Source of the DNA: an uncultured Sedimentitalea sp.
Lineage (GTDB): Bacteria > Pseudomonadota > Alphaproteobacteria > Rhodobacterales > Rhodobacteraceae
Length of the DNA stretch: 64,000 nt
Assembly (NCBI GenBank): GCA_947504115.1
Contig: CANNGH010000002.1
Span: 124,001-188,000 of the forward strand
Direction: 5' to 3'
Of the stretch, positions 38,542 through 41,453 are shown one piece after another. The first letter of the stretch is position 1. Each line of letters begins with the position of its first letter. Under the pieces are notes generated by a model. It did no database searches. It was not told where the DNA came from and was given only the letters and a program-made list of their open reading frames with translations. The position numbers and the translations under genes were made by a program.

Positions 38542-38876
38542 GTCGCCACCTCCTCTTCCGCGAAACAGGTCAGATACCGCCCGAACGGGTCCCGCTCGGC
38601 CACGGCCTGAATGACGAACACCCGCGCACCTTCGCGAAGGCGCTGTCCCGGCTTGGGCCGCGACGGCGCGCCAACCGGGGCAGAGCGGACCACGATCTTC
38701 CATCCGACCGTGGAAACCGGCGCGCCGGATTCGTCGCGCTCGCGTCCGGTGCGCAACGTGGCGTCACCCCACAGATTGCCCAGTACGGTCCAGGTCTCGA
38801 CATATCCGCCCGCGTTGTCGGGCTGGCGCACCGGGGTTTCCAGCGCCAGAAAGCGGGTCAGATGCGGCACGCTCAT
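38538..38876 (-). CDS. GTA gp7, head-tail stopper (head closure protein)
   Basis: A 112-residue head closure protein that seals the portal side after packaging. Family features are LETPVRQPDNAGGYVETWTVLGNLWGDA near residue 12 and FVIQAVAERDPFGRYLTCFAEEE at the end. Both ends are ATGA overlaps (with gp6 and gp8). Confidence 0.92.
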   Translation of the reverse strand: MSVPHLTRFLALETPVRQPDNAGGYVETWTVLGNLWGDATLRTGRERDESGAPVSTVGWKIVVRSAPVGAPSRPKPGQRLREGARVFVIQAVAERDPFGRYLTCFAEEEVAT

Positions 38877-39466
38877 CGTGCTACCCCCAGCCGCATCACC
38901 CGGTAACGCTGGATCAGGCTGGTCACGCCGAAAGGCATGCACCCGGCGCTCAGCGCGGTTTCATGACGGTATTCGTGATAATGCGCCGCCAGCAGCAGCA
39001 CCGCCTGGCCCAGATCGGCCGGCAGATCGCCCCAGTCCTCGGCCATGCCGGCAATCATCCGAACCACCAGTTTGCCGCCCATCGGGACCGCCGGCAGCAA
39101 GGCTCCCACGGGTCGCAAACGGGGCCGCTGGCTGTCCGGCTCCAGCCGGACGCTGTCCAACGGCAGCACGGTTTCGCTGCCGCCCGCATCCGTCGTCGTG
39201 ACGGCGGCGATTGCCAGCACCGGGGCCACCGGCAGCACCTGCCCCGCACGGTCGCGCCAGCCCGCCAGCTCCCAGCTGAACTCGCGCCGGATCAACACCT
39301 TGCCGGTGCGCGCCTCGATTGCGACAATCGCCGCTCGCAGGAACCCTCGCAGAATCCCATCCTGCAACCCGTCATCGCCAAACCCGGTTCCCAGCCGCAA
39401 ATGCGCCTTGAACTGTTCCACCGGCAGGGCCGCATCGGGCACGGTGGTTTCTTCGATCAACATCAT
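38873..39466 (-). CDS. GTA gp6, head-tail connector (adaptor)
   Basis: A 197-residue adaptor that links the portal to the stopper. LIEETTVPDAALPVEQFKAHLRLGTGFGDD at the N-terminus is characteristic of the phage connector/DNA-packaging family, as is the helical ILRGFLRAAIVAIEARTGKVLIRR. The start ATG at 39466 (or the adjacent one at 39463) follows a 171-base structured gap after the capsid gene; the track ORF crosses that gap. Confidence 0.92.
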   Translation of the reverse strand: MMLIEETTVPDAALPVEQFKAHLRLGTGFGDDGLQDGILRGFLRAAIVAIEARTGKVLIRREFSWELAGWRDRAGQVLPVAPVLAIAAVTTTDAGGSETVLPLDSVRLEPDSQRPRLRPVGALLPAVPMGGKLVVRMIAGMAEDWGDLPADLGQAVLLLAAHYHEYRHETALSAGCMPFGVTSLIQRYRVMRLGVAR

Positions 39467-39600
39467 CAATTCACATCCCATGCTCGGACCCCTCCGGGGC
39501 CAATCCAGTCTGGTCGGCAGGCGCGTGCCACCCCACGTTGCTCGGACGGAGGGGGAGCAGCTAGACAACGCGAGGGGTCTCTTCCCGGCACGCGCCCACC

Positions 39601-39626
39601 ACAGCCCCGACCTGCGCCGGGGCTGT
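39601..39626 (-). terminator. hairpin after the capsid gene within the GTA operon
   Basis: Perfect 9-bp inverted repeat ACAGCCCCG / CGGGGCTGT with an 8-nt loop, beginning 12 bases after the gp5 stop. No T-run follows, so it is more likely an RNA-stabilising or partial-termination element than a full terminator. The rest of the 171-base gap (39467-39637) holds further inverted repeats, described under findings. Confidence 0.6.
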
Positions 39627-39637
39627 ATCCGGCCCTC

Positions 39638-40819
39638 TTACGAGGTGCCGAATTTCAGCAGCTTGATCGCCGCGAAATCGCTGACGTCGCCACCCACACG
39701 CTTGGTCGCATAGAACAGGACATGCGGCTTGGCGCTGAACGGGTCACGCAACACGCGCAGATCGGGGCGCTCGGCGATGGTGTAACCAGCGGCGAAATCG
39801 CCGAAGGCCACCGCCATCGCGTCCGCAGCGGGATCGGGCATATCTTCGGCGATCAGCACCGGATAGCCCATCAACCGCGCGGGCTCGGCCGCGGCCAGAC
39901 CGTCGGACCACAGGAACCGCCCGTCATTGTCCTTGAGCTTGCGCAGATGGCCCGCGGTTTTCGAGTTCATCACGAAACTTGCGTTGGCCCGGTATTGCGC
40001 CCCCAGCGCATAGACCAGTTCGATGATCGCATCGCCGTCGCCAATATCGCCACTGACGCCCGTGGGAACATAACCCAGATTGCCCCAGGTCCAGACGTCA
40101 TTATCAACCGATGCATGGTTCAGAATGCCACGCGGCTTGTCCAGACCGTCGCCGGCGATGAAGGCCGCCGCCTCGGCGCGCGCGAACTTGTCGGCGATGC
40201 GCCCGGCCAGCCAGCCCTCGATGTCGAATGCGCTGTCATCCAGCAGCCGCTGGCTCGCCTTGGGCAGCGCGCTCAGCTCGTGCAATGCGATGGTGATGCG
40301 GTCGATGATCGGCGTTGCGGTTTCGGAAACCGCGCCGGTCTCGCTCGCCCAGCCGGCCCCGACCTCGCCATGATCGACCAGCACGTCATAGGTCGTCGCC
40401 TCGACATTCACGACCGAGGCCACGGCCCGGATCGACGCGGTCGAACGCAGCACCGACTGCACCCGCTCGGATGTCTGCGGATCCACCAGGAACCCGCCAT
40501 CGCCGTTCACCGCCGTGGACATCGCCTTGCTCTCGACCTCCAGCCCGCGCAGACCGTCATCGTCACCCGAGCGCAGGTAGGCATTGAACGCCTTCTGGTG
40601 GGGCGCACCGGCATCGGTGCTGGCGGCCAGATGCGGACGCGCCGCGGCAATTGATTTTCTGTTCAGCATGTTCACTCGCTCTTCCGTTTGTTGCAGTCTG
40701 GTTTCAAATTCGTCCCTGAAGCCCCTGATCTCGCTGACAAAGCCGGTCATCGCCTGCTTTACCTCGCGAACCATGGGCACACCGTCCCCGGCCAAGGCCG
40801 ATCCATCGGTCTTGCTCAT
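39638..40819 (-). CDS. GTA gp5, major capsid protein (HK97 fold)
   Basis: A 393-residue HK97-type capsid protein. The N-terminal ~90 residues form a charged coiled-coil scaffold (VPMVREVKQAMTGFVSEIRGFRDEFETRLQQTEERV) that the gp4 protease removes in RcGTA. The shell domain follows (GGFLVDPQTSERVQSVL near 145, ASETGAVSETATP near 195). The ATG at 40819 gives the family length; the track start lies inside gp4. The protein is intact to its C-terminal LKFGTS. Confidence 0.96.
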   Translation of the reverse strand: MSKTDGSALAGDGVPMVREVKQAMTGFVSEIRGFRDEFETRLQQTEERVNMLNRKSIAAARPHLAASTDAGAPHQKAFNAYLRSGDDDGLRGLEVESKAMSTAVNGDGGFLVDPQTSERVQSVLRSTASIRAVASVVNVEATTYDVLVDHGEVGAGWASETGAVSETATPIIDRITIALHELSALPKASQRLLDDSAFDIEGWLAGRIADKFARAEAAAFIAGDGLDKPRGILNHASVDNDVWTWGNLGYVPTGVSGDIGDGDAIIELVYALGAQYRANASFVMNSKTAGHLRKLKDNDGRFLWSDGLAAAEPARLMGYPVLIAEDMPDPAADAMAVAFGDFAAGYTIAERPDLRVLRDPFSAKPHVLFYATKRVGGDVSDFAAIKLLKFGTS

Positions 40820-40856
40820 CGTCACATCCTGTCTGTTGTGAGAATTCGGCGCGCGG

Positions 40857-41453
40857 TCAGCGTCGCGCCAGTTCCAGCCGCGCGTCCTCAAGGACGGCTG
40901 CCAATTCGCGCATGGCGGCGTCGGTTTCCGGCTCCTGCCCCTTTTTCGCCACCCGCGCACTGGGCAGCATCGGGAATGTCACCAGCGACACCTCCCAAAG
41001 CTCCAGTTCACTCAAGAGCCGTTGGCCCTTGTCGTTCTTGCCCGCCCGCCGCGTGCGATAGCCGATCGACAGCCCGTCGATCACCCCCGCCGCGACCAGC
41101 GCCGCCGCCTCGCGCCCGGACTGCGTGCTGTCAAGAATCCGCCCCTTGACCCACAACCCGCGCTGGTCTTCGCGCACCTCGTCCCAGACGCCGATCGGCT
41201 TGGCCGGATCGTGCTGCCAGAGCATCTTGATGCTTTGCCCGCGCCCTTTCAGCGCCTTCAGCGACAGCCCATAGGCGCCCTCCTGCACGACGTCGCCGCC
41301 CTGATCCGCCTGCCCGAACAGGCTGGCATAGCCCTCGATCACGGCCCCGTCGCTGACGCTCAGTGCCGCGCCGAACCCGGCAAACTTGCATTCCAATCCG
41401 CTATCGATCTGCATCAACCGCTCCTCATAACCCATTGAAGTTCCGCCTGTCAT
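40857..41453 (-). CDS. GTA gp4, prohead protease
   Basis: A 198-residue HK97-type (U35) prohead protease that cuts the capsid scaffold. The catalytic His is in KMLWQHDPAKPIGVW near residue 75 and the Ser in AAGVIDGLSIGYRTRRA near 125. The ATG at 41453 overlaps the gp3.5 stop as ATGA; an ATG at 41435 with a better AGGCGG site is a real alternative. Confidence 0.93.
   Translation of the reverse strand: MTGGTSMGYEERLMQIDSGLECKFAGFGAALSVSDGAVIEGYASLFGQADQGGDVVQEGAYGLSLKALKGRGQSIKMLWQHDPAKPIGVWDEVREDQRGLWVKGRILDSTQSGREAAALVAAGVIDGLSIGYRTRRAGKNDKGQRLLSELELWEVSLVTFPMLPSARVAKKGQEPETDAAMRELAAVLEDARLELARR

Follow-up and report, generated by a model that had tools for sequence, protein, structure and literature searches.

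A conserved, covarying RNA element between the capsid gene and g6 in the GTA clusters of Rhodobacteraceae

The capsid–g6 junction

The minus strand of the window, by which we mean the whole 64,000-nucleotide stretch of DNA that was analysed, carries an RcGTA-like head–tail cluster in the order terminase, portal, protease, capsid (g5), adaptor (g6), g7, g8 onward. The junction considered here is delimited by the following features.

39638–40960, minus strand: g5, major capsid protein ORF (Pfam Phage_capsid, E=2.8e-87; best PDB match Rcc01687, 6tb9)
39638–39640, minus strand: stop codon of g5
38873–39466, minus strand: g6, head–tail adaptor (connector) (Pfam Phage_connect_1; homologue of Rcc01688 by position)

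In the PDB comparison, the closest solved structure to the window capsid is Rcc01687 of the R. capsulatus GTA. The real start codon of g5 probably lies inside the annotated ORF, and g5 of RcGTA is 398 aa long (PMC7296036). From the g5 stop codon to the g6 start at 39466 there is a gap of 171 nt, whose sequence occurs once in its genome. The original prediction singled out this gap as an exception in an otherwise tightly packed operon, and comparison with 20 relatives bears this out: with the window included, the g5–g6 junction has a median of 163 nt, as against medians of mostly −4 to about 30 nt for the other scorable head–tail junctions, among which g6–g7 and g7–g8 are start–stop overlaps of 4 nt (−4), while the term–portal and portal–protease junctions are longer than about 30 nt but were scored in few clusters. 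In the Rhodobacteraceae sample with a homologous capsid, the median g5–g6 gap is 157 nt. A small protein encoded in the gap was considered and rejected, since the open frame upstream of g6 is not conserved and lengths differ by non-multiples of three.

Hairpin H1 and the element P2

The gap holds a hairpin (H1) directly after the capsid gene, then a conserved element (P2), and then a putative partner of the P2 loop.

39601–39626, minus strand: H1 hairpin, 9 perfect bp (11 bp in the MFE structure), beginning about 11 nt past the capsid stop
39516–39600, minus strand: P2, conserved RNA element of about 80 nt (match to covariance model R1, 84.6 bits)
39587–39597, minus strand: 5′ arm of outer helix P2a, pairing with 39519–39529 and including the 10-bp repeat of the original prediction
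39519–39529, minus strand: 3′ arm of P2a, pairing with 39587–39597
39567–39574, minus strand: 5′ arm of inner helix P2b, pairing with 39532–39539
39532–39539, minus strand: 3′ arm of P2b, pairing with 39567–39574
39559–39566, minus strand: 8-nt 5′ bulge GUCUAGCU, consensus GUCYAGCU, near-invariant by column counts
39555–39558, minus strand: 5′ arm of apical stem P3, GCUC, pairing with GAGC at 39540–39543
39540–39543, minus strand: 3′ arm of P3, GAGC, pairing with 39555–39558
39544–39554, minus strand: apical loop CCCCUCCGUCC, near-invariant, containing CCUCC complementary to the Shine-Dalgarno sequence
39489–39496, minus strand: purine-rich segment CGGAGGGG, putative pseudoknot partner (8 bp) of loop bases 39547–39554 (inverted repeat in the window plus comparative complementarity)

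The original prediction was built on repeats within this single sequence. The perfect 9-bp hairpin that it placed just after gp5 is present at 39601–39626, as is a 10-bp inverted repeat, GGCGCGTGCC/GGCACGCGCC (39520/39587), which forms part of the conserved outer helix P2a. An 8-bp inverted repeat, GACCCCTC/GAGGGGTC (39487/39572), can likewise be read in the window, but it is not conserved, and its counterpart in relatives does not rise above shuffled sequence. The two long-range pairs were said to cross as in a pseudoknot, and geometrically they do, but 39487/39572 draws on bases that belong to the conserved helix P2b; comparison with relatives instead supports a crossing pair of 39489–39496 with 39547–39554, an additional inverted repeat (CCCCTCCG/CGGAGGGG, 39489/39547) absent from the prediction. 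The direct repeat TGCTCGGAC (39481/39539) exists as described but is at chance level, and we rejected it as a meaningful feature, since 9-nt direct repeats have P=0.10 in shuffles and this one occurs in only 6 of the checked copies. When the gap was dinucleotide-shuffled 400 times, a minimum of two inverted repeats 9 bp or longer had P=0.0025, and four that were 8 bp or longer were found in 0/400. The folding energy of the single window gap does not stand out on either strand (z about −1.4), so single-sequence folding could not settle the question of structure; it was set aside as evidence because it is uninformative in GC-rich DNA, where the R. capsulatus copy gives z=+0.4.

Comparative evidence, by contrast with such folding, strongly supports the proposal of a structured RNA here. 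With the gaps set side by side, a near-invariant core, GUUGUCYAGCUGCUCCCCUCCGUCCGAGCAAC, sits within a longer stem and is preceded by an H1-type hairpin of variable sequence. The structure model of P2a, P2b, bulge, and P3 (22 pairs) was scored on an alignment of 44 sequences (A2), in which 96.7% of cells are paired and 18/22 pairs have double changes, as compared with 31–59% paired cells in slid controls, and no measure was reached by any of 500 shuffles (0/500). For 92 further sequences collected with R1, which stood outside model building but whose alignment (A4) was fitted to the model, 95.3% of cells are paired and 21/22 pairs have double changes. To avoid the bias of this fit, the same 92 sequences were realigned by MAFFT alone and column pairs were ranked by corrected mutual information; the top nine covarying column pairs of this structure-free alignment are proposed pairs, one of them also appearing in the neighbouring register. 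By helix, double changes occur in 9/10 pairs of P2a in A2 and in 10/10 in A4, and in 8/8 pairs of P2b in both alignments. The 4-bp stem P3 is paired in 97.6% (A2) and 95.7% (A4) of cells and has one C–G to U–A change, in L037. An alternative apex from RNAalifold (UC/GA and GC/GU pairs) fits similarly in count but has fewer double changes, and GCUC/GAGC was preferred on the strength of L037 and the held-out set. The apical loop is near-invariant as CCCUCCGUCC across P2 copies, with columns C55, C56, and G57 of A2 invariant in the 44 sequences, and it includes CCUCCG, a complement of the Shine-Dalgarno sequence. The mean folding energy of 153 P2 copies is −40.8 kcal/mol (mean z −2.87). In A4, about 14% of the cells are G–U or U–G, which are mismatched on the other strand, and this argues that selection acts on the coding-strand RNA and not on a DNA palindrome; a DNA-level palindrome or mobile repeat was rejected because of these common G–U pairs and because the gap is single in its genome. 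On this comparative evidence, H1 and P2 are a selected RNA structure of the coding strand.

The presence of H1 is conserved among relatives while its sequence is variable, and its mean energy in 153 relatives is −24.9 kcal/mol (mean z −2.58). No U-run follows H1 or P2: the 8 nt past H1 hold 0–1 T in 134/153 relatives, the 10 nt after P2 hold at most 6 T, and a terminator scan returned no terminator-like site. An intrinsic (Rho-independent) terminator at H1 or P2 was rejected on these grounds. The same observations bear on an attenuator, in which transcription would stop partially after the capsid gene and polymerase would be let through by GafA, a GTA activator with a relationship to the anti-terminator GafYZ. 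A precedent for this exists in Caulobacter, where GafZ is an anti-terminator and the GTA cluster has a GC-rich structured terminator, terGTA (PMC11150451). However, terGTA sits after the first gene of its cluster and is built of three 150-bp direct repeats (PMC11150451), and a simple terminator would need no invariant loop and bulge, so that, together with the missing U-runs and the empty terminator scan, we consider attenuation quite improbable. Many GTA-like capsid genes of other Alphaproteobacteria (L465–L493) also have a strong hairpin of unrelated sequence after them, which suggests a greater age and a broader occurrence for the H1-type hairpin than for P2.

Distribution of P2

The covariance search in Rhodobacteraceae that had been proposed as a check finds P2 in 149/298 sampled genomes, with compensatory changes in nearly all pairs; sampling was mostly one genome per genus. 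R1 gives one match per genome, except in one genome with two matches and two GTA capsid contigs. In that assembly (G081, 83% complete with 4% contamination), contigs C33 and C175 hold two GTA capsid loci (L025 and L057), each with its own P2, representing either two clusters or a mixed bin. All 153/153 copies checked lie between a GTA capsid gene and g6, 29–87 nt past the capsid stop and 16–96 nt before g6, and P2 is found at this same junction in well over a hundred genera. In a class-wide sample, P2 occurs in 3/385 genomes, all three of them Rhodobacteraceae, and the other Alphaproteobacteria of that sample gave no R1 match.

A scan with the core pattern over one genome per species for 84,980 species, together with IMG/VR, yielded at least 238 loci. 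Among the 238 listed, 231 are flanked by capsid and g6. Another six run into the end of their stretch but have one of these genes beside them, and the last, in a Longimicrobiales MAG (L302), is an unrelated match. Many of the viral-filed contigs from IMG/VR (L344–L423) are 4–19 kb pieces with a GTA capsid–RNA–g6 junction, and these are probably chromosomal GTA clusters rather than phages; that the listed contigs do not exceed 19 kb is what one would expect if GTA clusters had been entered as viruses. No P2 match was found in the nearest phages or in the RcGTA-like Mesorhizobium phage vB_MseS-P1, and the phage and plasmid collections searched held no P2 homologue. By comparison, then, P2 is specific to the capsid–g6 junction of Rhodobacteraceae GTAs, and GTA clusters that have it can be recognised by its sequence, with the RNA core serving as a simple marker for viral-filed contigs. 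Rfam 15 gave no match up to E=5 for the window stretch and none up to E=1 for six relatives, and no description of a capsid–g6 element was found in the literature searched; the element is unrecorded in both Rfam 15 and that literature.

About one-third of the GTA-bearing genera in the sample are without P2 at the model threshold, and P2 is thus not essential for a working junction. In five relatives (L004, L044, L064, L065, and L080) a small ORF of about 100–145 aa lies in the capsid–g6 gap where P2 would be; the protein of L004 matches phrog_5707, of unknown function, and that of L065 matched no PHROG. Such ORFs, and the extra genes that phages have between capsid and adaptor, are what would be cited for the gap as an inert spacer or the decaying remnant of a lost gene, an explanation that is extremely improbable, as compensatory changes in nearly all pairs, seen across well over a hundred genera, are incompatible with neutral drift.

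The element appears to be present in the R. capsulatus GTA itself. Genome G780 encodes a capsid that matches PDB 6TB9 (R. capsulatus Rcc01687) without a difference across 383 residues, from which we infer that G780 is R. capsulatus. It carries P2 at the same place (R1 46.4 bits, E=1e-6, E-values from the covariance model being rough), in the order H1, P2 with GCCUAGCUGCUCCCUCCGUCCGAGUGGC, and then UUUUCGGAGAG ahead of the g6 start. P2 was found in 11/12 loci searched from this genus. The congener G786 (L506) has kept H1, lost P2, and has a short capsid–g6 gap, and thereby provides a natural P2 deletion for comparison.

Loop pairing, proposed function, and related systems

The segment between P2 and g6 is more complementary to the P2 loop than shuffled sequence (−11.36 versus −8.64 kcal/mol, n=136), although the p value of 6e-16 is overstated because the sequences are related. 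Loops are predicted to pair better with their own segment than with permuted ones (p=0.0016, permutation without phylogeny), whereas by the same procedure there is no covariation of the loop with the g6 Shine-Dalgarno sequence (p=0.89). Most often the predicted pairing favours a purine-rich stretch whose centre lies 15 nt ahead of the g6 GGAG (IQR 13.5–17.5), and in 37/137 the favoured partner is the g6 Shine-Dalgarno itself. Among GTA genes with a usable start, the g6 leader has the strongest complementarity to the loop. The base before the g6 GGAG is C or T in 131/142 (92%) of clusters with P2 versus 15/21 (71%) without (p=0.011), a difference that we rejected as proof of loop pairing and regard as suggestive, since P2-less GTAs favour C too. 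Taken as a tendency, these comparisons give modest support to a pseudoknot between the loop and a purine segment that precedes the g6 Shine-Dalgarno by about 15 nt.

In the window species, the usual CGGAG of g6 is replaced by GGGAUG. An in-frame ATG at 39479–39481 is an alternative g6 start, with GGAGG nine bases before it; the preceding GGAGGGG consists of the same bases as the loop partner 39489–39496. The purine segment could therefore also serve as a Shine-Dalgarno sequence for this ATG, and the g6 start may be shifted upstream in this species.

A loop complementary to Shine-Dalgarno sequences might instead act in trans, with H1–P2 giving rise to a small RNA excised from the capsid 3′ UTR in the manner of CcsR-type RNAs. 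RNase E-made, 3′-UTR-derived small RNAs are common in Rhodobacter sphaeroides (CcsR1–4, PcrX; PMC8625941), yet the segment that the loop matches is in cis, at a constant spacing ahead of g6, and the element is never found away from the capsid–g6 junction, and we regard a trans-acting RNA as improbable. The near-invariant loop and bulge may instead have a protein ligand: P2 would then be a putative binding site at which a structural protein of the GTA, a regulator of the GTA, or an RNA-binding protein of the host recognises GUCYAGCU and the loop and exerts feedback on the operon's translation or stability. Freely varying helices combined with a loop and bulge that hardly change are the usual signature of a ligand site, and the conservation of these unpaired bases exceeds what pairing with the purine segment needs. 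As this proposal does not account for why the loop is preferentially complementary to the segment ahead of g6, we judge it possible but rather unlikely.

The lack of U-runs and the complementarity in cis favour over these rivals a cis-acting RNA in the GTA mRNA that would separate the capsid gene from the g6–g7–g8 module, limit g6 initiation, and protect capsid mRNA through H1, a reading to which, judging from sequence comparisons, we assign a probability of about one-half. H1 would cap the capsid segment at its 3′ end and slow its decay. P2 and the pseudoknot would be a barrier to ribosomes that have terminated at the end of capsid and could otherwise start again at g6, and the loop would pair just upstream of the g6 ribosome-binding site, or alternatively with that site, lowering g6 initiation; the effect would pass to g7 and g8 through the start–stop overlaps. 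Capsid subunits would as a result be numerous, and adaptors, stoppers, and terminators scarce. The original prediction had likewise suggested that such a structure stabilises the capsid message or lowers downstream expression, giving more capsid than connector, and this function is plausible and belongs to the family of explanations that we prefer. It fits the stoichiometry of the RcGTA particle, in which the g6 adaptor is a dodecamer and the stopper a hexamer in a particle whose shell is derived from T=3 (PMC7296036).

A further step, tentative and in our view somewhat doubtful, would be to see in P2 a new GTA-specific class of RNA switch, in which one loop chooses between the purine-rich site and the g6 ribosome-binding site, possibly through a protein bound at the bulge. 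If true, such a switch would restrict neck-protein synthesis to the proportion that capsid output calls for. For the question of how about ten times more capsid than neck protein comes from a phage-derived operon whose genes mostly overlap, P2 offers a specific, conserved, and mutable RNA at exactly the capsid–neck junction, also in the genetic model R. capsulatus, with a P2-less congener at hand.

Several known systems resemble parts of this arrangement. Mu-gpT-DE (Rfam) is a downstream element of Mu-like capsid genes. It shares with H1–P2 a structured element downstream of a major capsid gene, but belongs to another phage lineage, and no Rfam model matches the window or its relatives. The CcsR/cuckoo-type RNAs of Alphaproteobacteria have loops with CCUCC-type motifs. 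The P2 loop CCCUCCGUCC is likewise a hairpin loop complementary to the Shine-Dalgarno sequence; P2 differs in having no Rfam match, a single copy, an invariably intercistronic position, a larger two-helix stem, and a conserved bulge. CcsR RNAs are cut from a 3′ UTR (PMC8625941). Like terGTA, the capsid–g6 element is GC-rich, structured, and placed within a GTA operon where it could affect the genes behind it, but H1–P2 follows the capsid gene and is a single covarying RNA; direct repeats of the 150-bp terGTA type are not in the gap, where a 9-nt direct repeat after g5 is the only one. Finally, intercistronic hairpins of the puf operon of Rhodobacter capsulatus, from the same family, are reported to slow 3′ decay and give more product of the upstream genes (Klug 1987 and Chen 1988, as cited in PMC8625941 and PMC9690577). 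No counterpart of P2, with its invariant loop and bulge and its link to the next ribosome-binding site, is named there. In both systems, however, a strong hairpin stands right after an abundantly needed gene in a polycistronic mRNA, and H1 matches in place the puf-type decay terminator, being a stable hairpin that directly follows the gene whose product is needed in excess.
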